Positions 6,601 to 50,949 of a stretch of 64,000 nucleotides of DNA are shown here, piece by piece. This stretch comes from Mesomycoplasma lagogenitalium (GTDB lineage: Bacteria; Bacillota_I; Bacilli_A; Mycoplasmatales; Metamycoplasmataceae): positions 310,001-374,000 of the forward strand of contig NZ_CP122979.1 in assembly GCF_029854295.1 (NCBI RefSeq), read 5' to 3'. The translations under genes and the position numbers were made by a program. The notes below the pieces were generated by a model. The model did not search any database. It saw only the letters and a program-made list of their open reading frames with translations, and was not told the origin of the DNA. The first letter of the stretch is position 1. Every line of letters begins with the position of its first letter.

Positions 6601-6703
6601 CAAGCAAAATTTTTAATAAACAAATTCAAATTTGAGATGGTGTTAATTATAAAAATAGTGATAAATAATAAAAAAGTTGAAAAAGATAAAGGAATATTAC
6701 ATT

Positions 6704-8137
6704 ATGGTAAAAGAATTTAAGAATTTAGAAAATAAACAAATTAGTTTATTAACTTGAAAACAGATTTTTGATATGGACGAAAGAGAAATAAATAAATGAA
6801 GTGCAAAAATTAAGTTATTAAAATTTGTTTTAAAGCAAAATGATAAAACTGATTTACCTACTAAAAAACAGATTTTTAACATAAATCATAAACAATTAAA
6901 TTATTTTTTACTAAAACTTGATTTATTAAAATTAATTGCAGAGTTAGATGATAAAACTGATTTACCAACTTGAAAACAGATTTTTGATATGGACTTTGAT
7001 AAATTGTATAAATGATGAGATAAATTAGATTTATTAAAGTTCATTTTAGAGCAAAAAGATAAAAGTAATTTACCTACTAAAAAGCAAATTTTAAATATCT
7101 ATGATAGTCAAATGAAACACTTATATGAAAAAACTAAATTATTTAAATTTGTCATTAAACAAAAAGATAAAATCAATTTACCAACTTGAGAGCAGATTTT
7201 GAATATGAATATTGATAAACTGCATAATTGACTAGATAAATTAGATTTATTGAAGTTCATTTTAGAGCAAAAAGACAAAAGTAATTTACCAACTAAAAAG
7301 CAGATTCTTAATATAAATGATAATCAATTATCTTATTTATATAAAAAAACTAATTTATTAAAATTCACTATTAAACAAAAAGATAAAAGCAATTTACCAT
7401 CTTGAAAACAGATTTTTGATATGAATGATAATCAATTAAATAATCTCTTTCCAAAACTTGAATTTTTAGAATTAATTGCAGAGTTAGATGATAAAACTGA
7501 TTTACCAACTTGAGAGCAGATTTTTGATATGGAAAATAATCAATTATCAAATTTATATGAAAAATATTGATTACTAAAATCAATTTTAAAACAAGAAGAT
7601 AAAACTGATTTACCTACTAAAAAACAAATTTTAAATATGGATGAATATCAAATAAATAATTGAAGCGACAAAATTGAATTACTAGAATTTGTTTGAAATC
7701 AAAAAGATAAAACTAATTTACCAACTAGAAAGCAAATTCTTAATATAAATGACAACCAATTAGAGGATTTTAACATAAAACTTGATTTATTAAACTTGAT
7801 TGTAAAGTTAGATGATAAAACTGATTTACCAACTTGAAAACAGATTTTTGATATGGATATTGATAAATTGCATAACTTGCTAGAAAAATTAGATTTATTG
7901 AAATTAATTTCAAAGCAAAATGATAAAACTGATTTGCCTACTAAAAAGCAAATTTTAAATATGGATGATAGTCAAATAAATAATTGAAATAGAAAAATTC
8001 AGTTATTAAAATTTGTTTTAAATCAAAATAATAAAACTGATTTACCAACTACAAAACAAATTCTTGATATGAACGATAATCAATTAAATAATTTAAATTT
8101 AAAAATTGAATTATTAAAGCAAATGTTAAGTTCTTAA
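6704..8137 (+). CDS. Tandem-repeat helical protein A of the ICE
   Basis: A 477-residue protein built almost entirely of about 13 units of some 36 residues. The unit pattern is LPTKKQILNMNDNQL, a variable helix, then LLKLI..QKDKT. Units with LPTW(K/E)QIFDM and LPTKKQILNM tend to alternate, giving a longer period near 72 residues. There is no signal peptide or membrane segment, and the composition suggests a cytoplasmic helical solenoid. It is the first of three adjacent paralogues. TGA codes Trp many times. The family is not recognised. Start ATG after AAAGGAATATTACATT. Confidence 0.8.
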
Positions 8138-8188
8138 AATCAGTAGTGAAGATAAAAAATATTTAAAAATATAAAGGAATATTGCATT

Positions 8189-9082
8189 ATGATAAAAGAA
8201 TTTAATAATTTAGAAAATAAACAAATTAGTTCATTAACTTGAAAACAGATTTTTGATATGGACGAAAGAGAAATAAATAAATTAATAATCAAAAAACGAA
8301 TATGAGAATTTGTTTTAAAGTATAAAAATAATTTTTATTTACCTACTAAAAAGCAGATTTTTAATATGAGTGAAAATCAATTAAACTGCTTTTTTCTAAA
8401 ACTTGATTTATTAAAATTGATTGTAGAGTTAGATGATAAAACTGATTTACCAACTTGAGAGCAGATTTTTGATATGGATTATACTAAAATATTGAATTTA
8501 AATGACAAAATAGAAATCTTAAAATTAATTTCAAAACAAAAAGACAAAACTAATTTGCCTACTAAAAAGCAAATTCTTAATATGAATAATAATCAATTAT
8601 CTTATTTATATAAAAAAACTAACTTATTAAAATTTACCATTAAACAAAAAGATAAAAGCAATTTACCAACTTGAGAGCAGATTTTTGATATGGATATTGA
8701 TAAATTGTATAATTGGCAAAAAAAGTTAGATTTAATAAAACTAATTTCAAAGCAAAAAGACAAAACCGATTTACCTAATAAAGAGCAAATTTTAAATATG
8801 AATAATAATCAAATAAGTAGTTGAAATGACAAAATTGAGTTATTAAAATTTGTTTTAAAGCAAAAAGACAAAAATAATTTACCTACTAGAGAGCAGATTT
8901 TTGATATGGATAGTAATCAATTATTTTGTTTATATATTAAAATCGAATTATTAGAATTTGTCATTAATCAAGAAGATAAAAGCAATTTACCAACTTGAAA
9001 ACAGATTTTTAATATGAACGATAATCAATTAAATAATTTAAATTTAAAAATTGAATTATTAAAGCAAATGTTAAGTTCTTAA
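8189..9082 (+). CDS. Tandem-repeat helical protein B of the ICE
   Basis: A 297-residue paralogue of the preceding gene with about 8 repeat units. Its leader and first 35 or so codons are nearly identical to those of gene A (TATAAAGGAATATT before the ATG, then KEFNNLENKQISSLTWKQIF), and its last 22 codons (MNDNQLNNLNLKIELLKQML then SS) match the end of gene A. The ends are thus conserved and the interior differs in unit number and order, as expected if units are gained and lost by recombination. No known domain. Confidence 0.8.
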
Positions 9083-9149
9083 AAAACATAATTATTGATT
9101 TTTAAAATAAAAAACTATTTTATTTAAACATATAAAGGAATATTACATT

Positions 9150-9944
9150 ATGGTTAAAAAAATTGAAGATTTAAAGCCAAAGCAAAGTAATTTGCCAACC
9201 AGAGAGCAAATTATCAATATGAATGATAATCAATTAAATCATTGAAAATTTAAAATTGATTTACTAAAAATAATTTTAAAGCAAAAAGACAAAACTAACT
9301 CGCTAACTTGAGAGCAAATTTTTAATATAGATGAAGAATGAAAAGTTGAACTATTAAAATTAATTTTAGAGCAAAAAGATAAAAGTAATTTACCTACTAG
9401 AGAGCAGATTTTTAATATGAACGAAAATCAATTGTTGAATTGAGTAAATAAATTTTATCTATTAAATTTTTTATTAGACCAAAATAATAAAAAGAATTTA
9501 CCAACTAAAAAGCAGATTTTTAATTTAAGTAAAAAACAATTAAAATCTTGAGTTACAAAGGCCAAATTACTAAAATCAATTTTAGAACAAGAAGATGAAA
9601 CTAATTTACCAACTTGAGAGCAGATTTTTAATATGAATAATAATCAATTATTTTATTGACAATGGAAATTAAATTTATTAAATCTAGTTTTACAACAAGA
9701 AAATAAAACTAATTTACCAATTAGAAAGCAAATTCTTGCTTTTAATACAAAAAATATTCCATTGCCAAGTTTATTAAAAAAATATTTATTACTAGAATTA
9801 ATTTTAGAACAAAATGATAAAACTAACTTGCCAACTTGAGAGCAAATAATCAATATGAATGATAGTCAATTAAAACATTGAAAGGGAAAAATTAAACTAT
9901 TAGAGGAAATTATTAATATGAACAATAATCAGTTGGAACATTAA
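9150..9944 (+). CDS. Tandem-repeat helical protein C of the ICE, probably truncated by a TGA to TAA change
   Basis: A 264-residue third member with about 7 more diverged units. It ends NNNQLEH then TAA at 9942-9944. The same frame continues after this stop as QKNNLLKQILD and a second TAA (9978-9980), matching the ends of genes A and B (LKIELLKQML). In sibling units this position after His is Trp encoded by TGA (LNHWK, LKHWK), so a single G-to-A change of a Trp codon would explain the early stop. Loss is only about 13 residues, so function may persist. Confidence 0.75.
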
Positions 9945-15000: not shown

Positions 15001-18000
15001 CAATGATCCTAAAACAAATACATTATTGGCAAAATTATTAGATGTGGAAAAAAAGTATAAATTAACAAATGATGAAGAGTTAAAAAAGGAATATGAAAAA
15101 ACATTAAATCAATATCAAAATATCAATCTTTATTTAATAGAGGTGAAAAAATTTGATGCTCAAACTAAAGCAACGGAAACTGTATTTAGAAAAAAAATAT
15201 TAATTCAATCGCAAAAAGACATTTTATTTAATGTCAAATTTTTTGCTTGAAATCCAAACGAAAATCCCGAGCAAAGAGAAATTATAGAACAATTTTTAAA
15301 AGATCCTAAAGGTAATTATATTTTAGATAAAAATAAAAATAGAATTCCTAATCCAAAATATAATCCATTTATTAATAGTCAAACGGGAACTAACTTAGAA
15401 TATGTAATATTAACTGATGAAATTAGAGTGCCAATTGAAAAAGGAAATAAAGCCACTTTAAAATTAATTTATAATCATAATAATCAATTTATTTTATTTA
15501 ATCCTTTAAATGCTCAAGGAGAAAAAAGGGAAATTAAAACATTAAATCAAACACATAATGTTTATGAAATTACAAATATTTATGAAGCACATGTTGTTTA
15601 TGGGGGAATAAAATTAGAATTAAGTGATGGAATTAATCGCTTTGATGTTTGAAAATATAATGAAAAAACCAAAGAATGGGATAAACAAGAATTTTATAGT
15701 AATAATTTAAATTTTTATAAAAATAAAGAAAATGTCATCGGAGATGCGGGACTTTTTAAAATAGTAGCAAATAGAGATGATGGGCAAGCAAAACATAAAT
15801 TAGTTTATATTAAAAAAAATAACGGACAAAATATTAAAATTAATGATGAATTTTTTTCTAAATCAATTAAAGAAAATTCTAACTTTGTTTATTTAAAAGA
15901 TAATATCACTCCTTTATGAGACCATTATTGAGGAAAGCAATTATTAGTATTTTTAAAAACTAAATATAATTTAGATGTAAATATTGCCAAAATACTTTCT
16001 TATGATGAAATTTTAAATTATTGAAAAGAATTTTATGCCTTTGCAACATTAGAAACTTCATTGGTTGATGTTTTGCCAATTGTTAGTTGAAAAGATGTAA
16101 AAAATTTTATGGAATATAATCCTTATCCAATTGATAAAGAAACTAAAAATAAATATCGAGAAAAATTAAAAGAATTTGTTTCTTTTCCTTACTCTGAATA
16201 TATTGATTTAAACATTGAATTTGAAAGTGAAACTGAAATAATTAATAAATTAATAAAGCAATTAAATCAAAAAGCAAAAGATGCTATTGAATTAATAAAA
16301 AATGATTTTATTAACTTAAATACCTTTCAATTATTAATTGATAATCAAGAAGGTGATTTGGTTTCTCAAATGTTATTACTTTCTCAACCTCAAGCAATAT
16401 TAAAATCATTATTAGGTGGGAATTTAGAAAATTTAAAATCCAAATCAAATAACAGTAATAAAACTTATATTAAACTTTTAGAATGAGCAATTAAAGAAAT
16501 TGATAACACTCTTAAAAATAGAAATATTTTAATTAATTATTTAGAAAGTCAAAAAACCGCGGAAAATCAACAAGAAAATAGTTTAAATTCTAAAATTAAA
16601 ATATTTTTATCAAATTTAAATGACAATTTATTAACTTCTAATACATTTAATAACAACTATAAATTGTCTTTAATTTTATTTAATCAAAAAATTAATGAAG
16701 ATTTTAAAATAAATAGTTTTAATCAATCAGAAAATATTGATGATAAAATTCATTTTAATTTTTCTACAAAAAGTAATTTTATTCACTTAAATACTAAAAC
16801 AATTACAATTTCGGGTAATTGAATGAAAGAAAGCGAATTATTTAATCCGAAAGTTAATACAAATAAAATCAATGATTTTTATTGAAAAAATAAAGAAGTA
16901 ATTACCATACAAGATTTAAATAATAAAGACAATAATTTTTTTGATGATTTAACATATGAAAATTTAGAAATTTATAGTGCTAGAGTTAATAAACTTGAAC
17001 AAAAATCAAATGAAAATCAAAGAGCAATATTAACATTTAATTTTAGAAAAAAAATTATTAGTAGTTTAGAATTCAACGACAAAGAATACACTGTTTATTT
17101 AGAATTAAAAGTTTCTACAAACGAAAATCCTTATAAAGTTGAAGAAAACAATAATGAAAAAGATAAAAATAACGGAAACAGTGGAAATGGAGACGACGGA
17201 AACGACGGAAACGGAAGTGGCGGAAATGGAAGTGGTGGAAACGGAAACGGAGATAACGGAAACGACGGAAACGGAAGTGGTGGAAACGGAAATGGCGATG
17301 ATGGAAACGGAAGCAATGGAAACGGAAACGGAGATAACGGAAACGGTGGAAATGGAGAAGACGGAAACAACGGAAACGGAAGTGGTGGAAACGGAAATGG
17401 CGATGATGGAAACGGTGGAAATGGAAACGGAGATAACGGAAACGGCGGGAATGGAGAAGATGGAAATGGTGGAAATGGAAACGGAGATAACGGAAACGGC
17501 GGGAATGGAGAAGATGGAAATGGTGGAAATGGAAACGGCGGAAACGGAAGCAACGGAAACGGAAACGGTGGAAATGGAGATAACGGAAATGGTGGAAACG
17601 GAAGTGATGATAATGGGGATGGATCAAATATAGATACATCTCAAATTACTGAAACTGATTTTTCTAAAATGAAATTAGAAGATATGTTTTTCAAAAAATT
17701 AACAAACAAAAAAGAATTATCAATTAAAATTTACGAAAATTTACAAAAGCAATTTGAAAAATATTTTGGAAATAATAATGTATCGAATTTAATTGAAATT
17801 GAAAATTTTGACAAAATTCTTAATTCTTTAGTAAAAGAACTATCACTAAATGTTGAAAAACTGATTATTAAACCTAAATTTGAAAAGTTATCTGATGATA
17901 AAAAATTTATAGGTTATACAACTGTTAATGTAACTAATAATATGTTAGATGTAAATGAATCACCTGAACATAAGAAAAAAGAAAACGAAGATTTTCAAAA

Positions 18001-20764: not shown

Positions 20765-20854
20765 AAAGTATTTTATCAAAATTTAATTAAAATACAAGAA
20801 TTTTAATTTATTTTTTAATTGAATTAAAATAACGATGTAAAAGGAGAAATTAAA
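20765..20854 (+). promoter_or_regulatory. Duplicated promoter region, copy 1
   Basis: About 62 bases (20765-20826) match 21933-21994, with 33 bases identical at the 3' side (20794-20826). At the end of the copy the presumed -10 element is TAAAAT (20825-20830). AAAAGGAG follows as ribosome binding site for the Panacea-type gene at 20855. Confidence 0.6.
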
Positions 20855-21361
20855 ATGAACAAATTTAAACCAATATCTGCTTTATTGTTTTTTGAAACTT
20901 TTTTAAAATATTGTAATTTAAAAAAGTTTAAGGACTGAAATTTGCTTACTTGACAGCAGAAAATGCTGTTTTTTACTCACTGAGCAGTTTTAAAGAAATT
21001 TGATATTTCACTATTTAAAGAAGAATTTAAAGCATTTTATTTTGGAACAAACATTCTAGAAGTGTTTTGAAAACAAAAATATACTGTTTTTAAAAGTGAA
21101 GATATTGAAAAAACTACAGAAAGCAAAATAAAAAGGGAATTAAGCGATAAATTTAACATTGAAGATAAAATCATTGATTACATTTTATCTGTTTGAAATA
21201 AACTCGGAAATTTAACAAGAGAGGAGTTGGTAATTTTAGCACATCAATTAAATTCTTGAAAAGATATTTATGATGAAAACAGTGTTGGCAAAACAATCAC
21301 AAACAATAAAATGAAGGAAGATAATCTAGATATTTTAGAAAAATATTTAGATATTAAATAA
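20855..21361 (+). CDS. Panacea/DUF4065-type protein 1 (diverged)
   Basis: A 168-residue protein with several TGA (Trp) codons. LLTWQQKMLFFTHWAVLKKF and a short region with EFKAFYFGTNILEVFW line up with the next gene and with the Panacea (DUF4065, SocA-like) pattern of a helix 'LqKLlYfa.g..l', then 'a..yGPv...v'. The normally conserved GP of the YGP motif is changed to GT here. Panacea domains act as antitoxins in many toxin-antitoxin pairs and are common on phages and ICEs. The partner is unclear; tandem with a second copy 21 bases downstream. Confidence 0.7.
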
Positions 21362-21382
21362 TTTAAAAGGAGTTGTTAAAAA

Positions 21383-21913
21383 ATGGAAAGTTTTGAATCA
21401 ATATTAGCAGAAGATTTATTTCCTTATTTTTTACAATTTTGTAAAAATAGGAATTTTAAAGATAAAGAATTAAGAACTTGACAACAAAAAATGCTGTTTT
21501 TTACTCATTGAGCCATTTTAAAAAAATTTAACATTGCTTTATTTTCTAATGAAATTAGAGCATATCATTACGGTCCTTTAATTATAGAACTATCAAGATT
21601 TCAAACATATTGAACAATAGATGATGTTGAAAAAAGCGACCAGAAGGAAATCAAACATAATATTGTTAAAGATTTTAATTTAAATAGCAAATTAGTAGAT
21701 TATATGTTTTTATTTGAGAAAGTATGGGCAAATTTACTAAAAAAACAATTGATAGTTTTATCACATAATTTGCATTCGTGAAAAAATAATTATGATATGA
21801 AAAAAGTTGGCAAAATAATTACAAACAACGATATGAAAAATGATAAATATGAAATCGTTGAAGAATATTTAGAAATAAAAGAGGATTCAAAATACAATAA
21901 AAAAACCTTTTAA
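21383..21913 (+). CDS. Panacea/DUF4065-type protein 2
   Basis: A 176-residue paralogue of the preceding protein. LRTWQQKMLFFTHWAILKKF and NEIRAYHYGPLIIELSRF give the intact 'YGP' core of the Panacea family, unlike copy 1. The C-terminal part keeps LSHNLHSWKNNYDMKKVGK, corresponding to LAHQLNSWKDIYDENSVGK in copy 1. It begins 21 bases after copy 1 with ribosome binding site AAAGGAG. Probably an antitoxin or a stability factor of the ICE; which gene would be its toxin cannot be told. Confidence 0.75.
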
Positions 21914-49406: not shown

Positions 49407-50072
49407 TTATTTAGAACATGTTTTTTCTTCTTTTGAACAAGAAGGTTTAGATGAACAAGATGATTCTGATTTAGAATAACTTAAACCTGTTTTAGGACAA
49501 ACTTTTTCTTCTTTTGAACAACTTGATTTTGAAGCGCATGTTGATTCAGATTTTGAACATACTTTTTCATTTTTTGAACAAGATGATTCTGATTTAGAAC
49601 AACTTAAACCTGTTTTAGGACAAACTTTTTCTTCTTTTGAACAACTTGATTTTGAAGCGCATGTTGATTCTGCTTTAGAACATGCTTTTTCTTCTTTTGA
49701 ACAAGAAGGTTTAGATGAACAAGAAGATTCAGATTTAGAACAACTTGATCCTTCCGAAACTTCAGGTAATGTTTCTAATAGTTCTTTAATTTGTTCTAAT
49801 GCTCTATATCCAACAAATTTTGTTGCTAATTTTCCATCTTTATATACGAATGTAGTTGGAGTTCCACTAACGCCCATTTCTTTTGCGAATTCTTCATCAT
49901 GATCGACATCTACTTTATAAACATCTAAATTTAATTTTTCTGATACTTCTTTTAATACAGGTGAAAGCATTTTACATACACCACATCAAGTCGCGTGGAA
50001 ATTTAATAATTGTAAACCCTTCCCTTTTTTAATTTCATCAGCTAATGTTGCTTTTGTAACATCTTTTAACAT
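49407..50072 (-). CDS. Thioredoxin with a long cysteine-rich repeat tail
   Basis: A 221-residue protein. Residues 1-105 are a complete thioredoxin: LLNFHATWCGVCKMLSP with Cys30 and Cys33 (the Trp is TGA), VDVDHDEEFAKEMGV and the cis-Pro loop SGTPTTFVYKDG. After LETLPEVSEG comes a tail of about 110 residues made of SSCSKEEKVC, STCASKSSCS and PKTGLSCSKSESSC units, holding some 16 Cys, Ser and Lys and no order-promoting residues. Normal thioredoxins are about 105 residues, so the tail is an addition. It may bind metal or act as a thiol reservoir. Start ATG follows AAAGGAGAATTTAAA. Confidence 0.88.
49454..49676 (-). repeat. 123-bp tandem repeat in the thioredoxin tail
   Basis: About 100 bases starting at 49454 recur at 49577 with one or two differences, giving a 41-residue period. 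One difference changes a Cys codon to Tyr (GLSY against GLSC). Flanking parts show a more diverged copy of the same SSKPSCSKEEK unit at each end. Confidence 0.85.
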
Positions 50073-50430
50073 TTTAAATTCTCCTTTTTGTTTTTTATTT
50101 ACAAAAATATTATAAATTTATATTTTAAATATTTAATAAAAAACAGATGATCGATGAAAAAAATTCAAAATTTTAATATTTTTTAATTGGATAGGACATA
50201 CAAAATGCTTTTTATATTAAAAAATTATTGAAAAAAGTATTGTATATGTTAAATTTCCTCTACAATTTTTATTAAATTTTAAGATAAATTTAAATTATTT
50301 TTAATGCAAAAATAATTTTTACTTTCAGCATATAATAGTCATTTTTTTAGGAAAAATCTCCTGTTTTTCCCAAATTTTTCCATTTTTTGACAAAAGTGGC
50401 AAAAAATTGACATTATATGTGGAGGTTTGT
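50073..50430. other. Divergent intergenic region between thioredoxin and coiled-coil genes
   Basis: No gene. It holds a TATAAT at 50331-50336 facing right, a hairpin GGAAAAA (50350-50356)/TTTTTCC (50364-50370), and two TTGACA words (50387-50392 and 50407-50412) just before the GGAGG of the next gene. Which promoter serves which gene cannot be told. Confidence 0.45.
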
Positions 50431-50949
50431 ATGAATAATAATAAAACTTTAGTTTCATTAAAAGAAGCAACTAAAATTATTAAACAATATGAAAAACATC
50501 AATGTAAAATTGATTTTAAAGATGAAAAAAAGTGTAGAATTATAATGGAAGGAGAAAAATTGAAAATGCAGGAAACTAGTGAGAAAAAAATCACACTTAA
50601 ATCTTTATATAATTTAGTTCTTAATATGCAAATTGTGCTTTTGGATGTGCAAAAACAAACTAATGAAAATTCTGCGGATATTAAAGAAATCAAAATTGTT
50701 CAAGCGGAGCATAGTAGAATTTTGCAAGAGCACAGCCAAGATATCAAGGAGATTAAAACCGTTCAAGCGGAGCATAGTAGAATTTTGCAAGAGCACAGCC
50801 AAGATATCAAGGAGATTAAAACCGTTCAAGCACAACACAGTAAAATTTTACAAGAGCACAGCCAGGATATCAAAGAAATGAAAGAAGACATTAAAATGTT
50901 AAAATCTTTCCACGAAGATGATATTAAAAAATATAAAGATAAAAAGTAA
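50431..50949 (+). CDS. Coiled-coil protein with 21-residue tandem repeats
   Basis: A 172-residue protein starting at the ATG after GTGGAGG. The N-terminal 65 residues are charged; then a hydrophobic segment LYNLVLNMQIVLLDVQK leads into three repeats of QAEHSRILQEHSQDIKEIK with a 21-residue period, three heptads, ending in a Lys-rich helix. The pattern is that of mycoplasma coiled-coil families (DUF16-like or similar repeat proteins), probably a homo-oligomer. No signal peptide. Function unknown. Confidence 0.8.
   Translation: MNNNKTLVSLKEATKIIKQYEKHQCKIDFKDEKKCRIIMEGEKLKMQETSEKKITLKSLYNLVLNMQIVLLDVQKQTNENSADIKEIKIVQAEHSRILQEHSQDIKEIKTVQAEHSRILQEHSQDIKEIKTVQAQHSKILQEHSQDIKEMKEDIKMLKSFHEDDIKKYKDKK
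50698..50823 (+). repeat. Two identical 63-bp tandem repeats plus a degenerate third
   Basis: 50698-50760 and 50761-50823 are identical; 50824-50883 is a diverged copy. They encode the 21-residue coiled-coil unit. Perfect identity indicates a recent duplication. Confidence 0.92.

Follow-up and report, generated by a model that had tools for sequence, protein, structure and literature searches.

A thioredoxin with a cysteine-repeat tail in Mesomycoplasma lagogenitalium, a candidate tethered thiol reservoir

A single unbroken open reading frame of Mesomycoplasma lagogenitalium, 221 codons long when read with genetic code 4, encodes a thioredoxin domain followed by a 116-residue tail of evenly spaced cysteines (Table 1). 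We tentatively read the tail as a thiol/disulfide reservoir tethered to its enzyme, one that its own domain or a companion thioredoxin would cycle, drawing in the end on thioredoxin reductase, and give this reading a probability of roughly 0.4. The gene lies in the 64,000-nucleotide stretch of DNA analysed here (the window), which is part of a complete single-contig genome of 973,223 bases. An earlier note on this DNA had described a complete thioredoxin domain fused to a repetitive cysteine tail, about 16 cysteines, a 123-bp DNA repeat and a Cys-to-Tyr change in one copy, all of which held on analysis, the cysteines of residues 106-221 numbering exactly 16. Beyond the note, the analysis brought out the CGVC active site, a tail-less paralogue in the genome and a tail free of CC, CxC and CxxC. 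A frame error separating the tail from the thioredoxin, which the note had named as grounds for abandoning the idea, is excluded for this assembly; of its other ground, a tail both missing from all relatives and unexpressed, the first half agrees with the searches below.

Table 1. Features of the tailed thioredoxin gene and its flanks, in window positions
Feature	Position	Strand	Basis
Whole gene, thioredoxin with C-terminal cysteine-repeat tail	49407..50072	-	open frame, genetic code 4
Thioredoxin domain, residues 1-101	49770..50072	-	PF00085, AlphaFold, Foldseek
Active site CGVC, residues 30-33	49974..49985	-	alignment A1
Cys-repeat tail, residues 106-221, predicted disordered	49410..49757	-	sequence reading, AlphaFold
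123-bp direct repeat, copy 1 (plus-strand order), with the Cys-to-Tyr codon	49452..49574	-	
123-bp direct repeat, copy 2, 94% identical	49575..49697	-	
Codon 199, TAT (Tyr); other units TGT or TGC	49476..49478	-	
Shine-Dalgarno AAGGAG, 8 nt 5' of the ATG	50081..50086	-	read directly
Intrinsic terminator-like hairpin, 10 pairs and T-run, 3' of the stop codon	49370..49395	-	
Possible sigma-70 promoter TTAACA-17-AATAAT, weak	50224..50252	-	10/12 positions

The only residue of the frame that depends on the genetic code is Trp29, which is encoded by TGA and sits in the active site; because this TGA shortens the frame, the product under table 11 is 187 aa. Sigma-70 patterns of the quality of the possible promoter were found at 12 sites where 8.5 are expected. 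The terminator-like hairpin (1 found versus 0.1 expected; z -3.5) is placed between the tailed gene and the convergent gene of a DegV-family protein, and the adjacent genes are those of the DegV-family protein and a transketolase. The divergent neighbour (50437-50949, plus strand) encodes a 170-aa protein that resembles a coiled coil and has no Pfam family above cut-off, and it contains a 63-bp unit repeated three times in tandem (QAEHSRILQEHSQDIKEIKTV), so that both neighbouring genes, the tailed thioredoxin and this one, bear in-frame tandem repeats. Elsewhere in the window, all on the plus strand, we observed three consecutive ORFs (6665-9941) made up of some twenty diverged copies of a 108-bp (36-aa) repeat with the pattern LPTxKQIFxMxxNxxxxWxxKIxLLKxIxKQKDK, an Asn/Gly-rich GNGGNGN repeat array (17196-17603) towards the end of an ORF of 2188 codons, and two adjoining 177-codon ORFs (20828-21910), an apparent tandem duplication, that have the motif LTWQQKMLFFTHWA in common.

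Residues 1-101 matched PF00085 (6.9e-23; 81.1 bits against a cut-off of 23.5), with WCGVC at residues 29-33 and GTPT, which holds the cis-proline, at residues 70-73; C30, G31, C33 and P72 are invariant in our alignment (A1). AlphaFold predicted the thioredoxin fold with confidence, the block-mean pLDDT being about 88-95 over residues 1-100, and Foldseek matched S. aureus and E. coli thioredoxins with a probability of 1.00 and a TM to target of 0.85-0.89. The score against the thioredoxin equivalog TIGR01068 (NCBIfam) was 80.0 bits, below its cut-off of 96.8, and that against the PDI domain TIGR01126 was 61.4 bits against a cut-off of 107.2, the motif being CGVC and not CGHC. Instead of the canonical TrxA motif CGPC, which the paralogue and the congeners have (alignment A1), the tailed copy has CGVC, and it may be a weaker reductant than a CGPC enzyme. 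In two of the congeners (G002 and G004; L006, L007), the thioredoxins read TCGPCIM versus WCGPCKM, with the active-site Trp and the next Lys lost.

The same genome encodes a second thioredoxin (C1:272045-272344; 104 aa, CGPC) that has no tail and is 64% identical to the tailed copy. This makes the tailed gene an additional copy, free to specialise. In the tree, its domain has a branch of 0.16 versus 0.28 for the tail-less paralogue, which argues that the domain is not decaying; given this short branch and the Pfam, fold and PDB matches, we conclude that the domain is intact and under constraint. The phylogeny gives no order for the two copies, and synteny was rejected as a guide to the ancestral copy, the DegV-family and transketolase genes lying apart in the congeners and thus being uninformative. 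A third and more distant thioredoxin-like protein, with the motif WCGDC, adjoins secA (L003:1486-1821; G000:C1:19224-19502), and a protein of this kind is also a weak second match in other relatives. The genome contains one clear thioredoxin-reductase (TrxB)-like gene (G000:C1:248358-249233), whose 295.5 bits fall below the NCBI equivalog cut-off of 343.45, and a redoxin.

In composition, the tail has 40 Ser, 22 Lys and 15 Glu beside its cysteines, and no His. Successive cysteines are 6 or 7 residues apart in 14 of the 15 intervals, the remaining interval of 14 falling at Tyr codon 199, and when the tail residues were shuffled 20,000 times this regularity was never reached. Against a Cys background of about 0.45% in the other ORFs of the window, the Poisson probability of 16 Cys in 116 residues is about 1e-18, a value that treats the copied repeat units as independent. 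From residue 101 on, the block-mean pLDDT of the AlphaFold model was about 42-66, and the tail is predicted to be disordered. A coiled coil, which the seven-residue spacing might bring to mind, was rejected given this predicted disorder and the Ser, Lys or Glu at nearly all other positions. The protein sequence contains no signal peptide, lipobox or membrane segment.

At the DNA level, the tail is a mosaic of 60/63-bp units together with the tandem 123-bp block, whose two copies have seven base differences. The first codon is Cys (TGT or TGC) in 16 of the 17 units, two of them using the synonymous TGC, and Lys (AAA) is present in all 16 complete units, while the other columns vary. Four of the five codons changed between the 123-bp copies are nonsynonymous and pN/pS over all heptad pairs is about 0.30/0.35, which does not demonstrate selection on the tail overall; however, these figures are weak either way because the units were recently duplicated, and some unit pairs differ synonymously only (e.g., residues 111-117 versus 158-164). 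Across the genome, the Cys-heptad codon pattern had 17 matches, seven in the tail and ten isolated, with no second array. Other matches to the tail DNA in the genome were short (73-95%), and the best, L107, which sits in an AT-rich stretch of a lipoprotein-like repeat ORF, was taken as chance.

Thioredoxin itself is widespread in the group, with a match in 115 of 117 related genomes, the closest named relative being that of Mycoplasma procyoni (73% over residues 2-99). Every homologue whose whole sequence was read ends about 64-72 residues past the CxxC, which is the domain end and the point where the tail starts; a few longer open frames outside that set (e.g., in G029, G044, G056) may carry an extension of another kind. 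The fusion that the earlier note proposed to seek in other mycoplasmas did not appear in the related genomes searched, and a query with the tail found only its own gene among 135 family, 320 order and 392 sampled phylum genomes. Faint matches (E 2.5e-4 to 0.08) came from other mollicutes and from one further genome. Those inspected (L044, L045 and L068-L070, the match L071 in G524 lying outside this set) were rejected as relatives, being unrelated low-complexity repeats, such as the CAKYGMT repeat of L068, shadow frames or a different gene, with none beside a thioredoxin. The whole protein had no relative among viral contigs, the tail matched no plasmid and no PDB sequence and had no Pfam or NCBIfam match above cut-off, and the open-access literature searched yielded no cysteine-rich thioredoxin tail or fusion. 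The protein belongs to the thioredoxin family, and its tail matches nothing known in the searches made here, which bears out the note's statement that it knew of no described family with this layout. The tail has no cross-species conservation, since it is present in one genome and in none of the relatives searched; as far as sampled, and on the basis of that one genome, the tailed thioredoxin is species-specific.

The serious null hypothesis is neutral repeat growth, in which replication slippage made a redundant thioredoxin gene longer at its 3' end and the resulting tail, being hydrophilic and disordered, was tolerated without any function. We consider it unlikely, yet the strongest of the rivals: it fits a tail found in one genome only, a recent 123-bp duplication whose differences are mostly nonsynonymous, a heptad pN/pS near 1, the loss of one Cys, the presence of a redundant paralogue and a 63-bp tandem repeat in the neighbouring gene as well. 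It is less easily reconciled with the Cys kept in all but one of units that otherwise differ, twice through a synonymous codon, with the invariant Lys of the complete units, with the synonymous-only pairs, with a Cys content that is striking beside the genome's other sampled proteins, and with a frame that is open throughout. That the array is an assembly or sequencing artefact within the repeat is very improbable. Only a single assembly of the organism exists and the units of such an array can be miscounted, but the frame holds for 348 bases through every unit, the units differ from one another, and the genome is a complete single contig with a correct terminator 3' of the gene.

Among functional alternatives, the tails might, when oxidised, form disulfides with each other or with thiols of the surface or envelope, which the thioredoxin domain would rearrange or undo; assembly would then be redox-dependent, and a CGVC site would tilt the domain towards isomerase or oxidase activity. 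Many evenly spaced, exposed cysteines in a soluble Ser/Lys/Glu chain suit such cross-linking, as does the replaced active-site proline, which by analogy may shift the domain towards isomerase activity. The best Foldseek matches include structures of S. aureus thioredoxin proline-31 mutants, which are reportedly less reducing. There is also the precedent of P34H, which raises PDI-like activity in E. coli thioredoxin (PMC3375227). However, CGVC alone is weak evidence for an isomerase or oxidase role because family relatives also carry CGAC, CPPC and CAPC, the protein has no recognisable means of reaching the envelope in its sequence, and the mycoplasma cytosol is presumably reducing. We regard cross-linking or anchoring as less likely than neutral growth. 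Less likely still is the metal trap that the earlier note had put forward, in which the tail would bind soft metals (Zn, Cd, Cu, Hg) while the thioredoxin domain keeps the thiols reduced. Sixteen thiols at high local density would serve this, but the idea was weakened by the absence from residues 106-221 of CC, CxC and CxxC, the motifs typical of metallothioneins, and of His, and the nearest genes, those of the DegV-family protein and transketolase among them, include no metal transporter. The candidate thiol-buffer and self-substrate functions that the note also raised are compatible with the data.

We therefore return to the tethered thiol reservoir as the best explanation. We hypothesize that tandem duplication of DNA gave the extra thioredoxin a hydrophilic, disordered tail in which about every seventh residue is Cys, and that the thiols of this tail would react with oxidants or disulfides and form disulfides among themselves; these would be re-reduced by the attached CGVC domain or the companion CGPC thioredoxin, with electrons supplied by thioredoxin reductase. 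Given the 6-7 residue spacing without CxxC or CxC and the predicted disorder, each thiol should be separately reachable. The intact and constrained domain, the Cys and Lys codons kept in the tail units, the Shine-Dalgarno sequence and terminator, the TrxB-like gene and redoxin, and the separate tail-less CGPC copy support this reservoir, while the tail's occurrence in a single genome, the mostly nonsynonymous changes between the 123-bp copies, the heptad pN/pS, the one Cys already lost and the CGVC motif count against it. That the gene is expressed, that its product is cytosolic, that the tail reacts at all with the domain and that the protein acts as a buffer are what we infer. It is possible, if doubtful, that the duplicated thioredoxin went further and evolved an expandable array of substrate thiols, placing buffer and recharging enzyme in one polypeptide and letting the repeat number tune capacity. 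From the general biology of mycoplasmas, M. lagogenitalium is presumed to lack glutathione. The annotated antioxidant set of M. iowae, which was called typical, comprises thioredoxins, thioredoxin reductases, peroxiredoxin and glutathione peroxidase (PMC4134286).

Compared with known systems, the protein resembles bacterial TrxA (PF00085/TIGR01068) in its full domain, CxxC, cis-Pro in GTPT and fold match to the S. aureus and E. coli enzymes, and departs from it in CGVC for CGPC, the Cys tail and the sub-cut-off TIGR01068 score. With PDI-type domains (CGHC) it shares the replacement of the active-site proline, but it has Val and not His, a single domain and no visible export signal. Metallothioneins are likewise short, disordered and Cys-rich, whereas the tail lacks their clustered motifs and has no Pfam metallothionein match. 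The combination of a thioredoxin domain with a long, repetitive, low-complexity segment has an analogue in mammalian SPTRX-1/TXNDC2, for which we claim no homology of the repeats; those of SPTRX-1/TXNDC2 are N-terminal and not Cys-rich. Sperm-specific thioredoxin 1 (SPTRX-1) is a thioredoxin linked to disulfide and fibrous-sheath biology (PMC11276731).

If the tail does nothing, the gene would still illustrate cleanly how a repeat can grow at the end of a recently duplicated gene while its cysteine is retained. If the tail works with its domain, the protein would clearly exemplify a redox enzyme that grew its own substrate array through DNA slippage and would offer engineered thiol buffers a natural model, and a bacterium with a minimal genome would thereby gain a genetically tunable thiol capacity.
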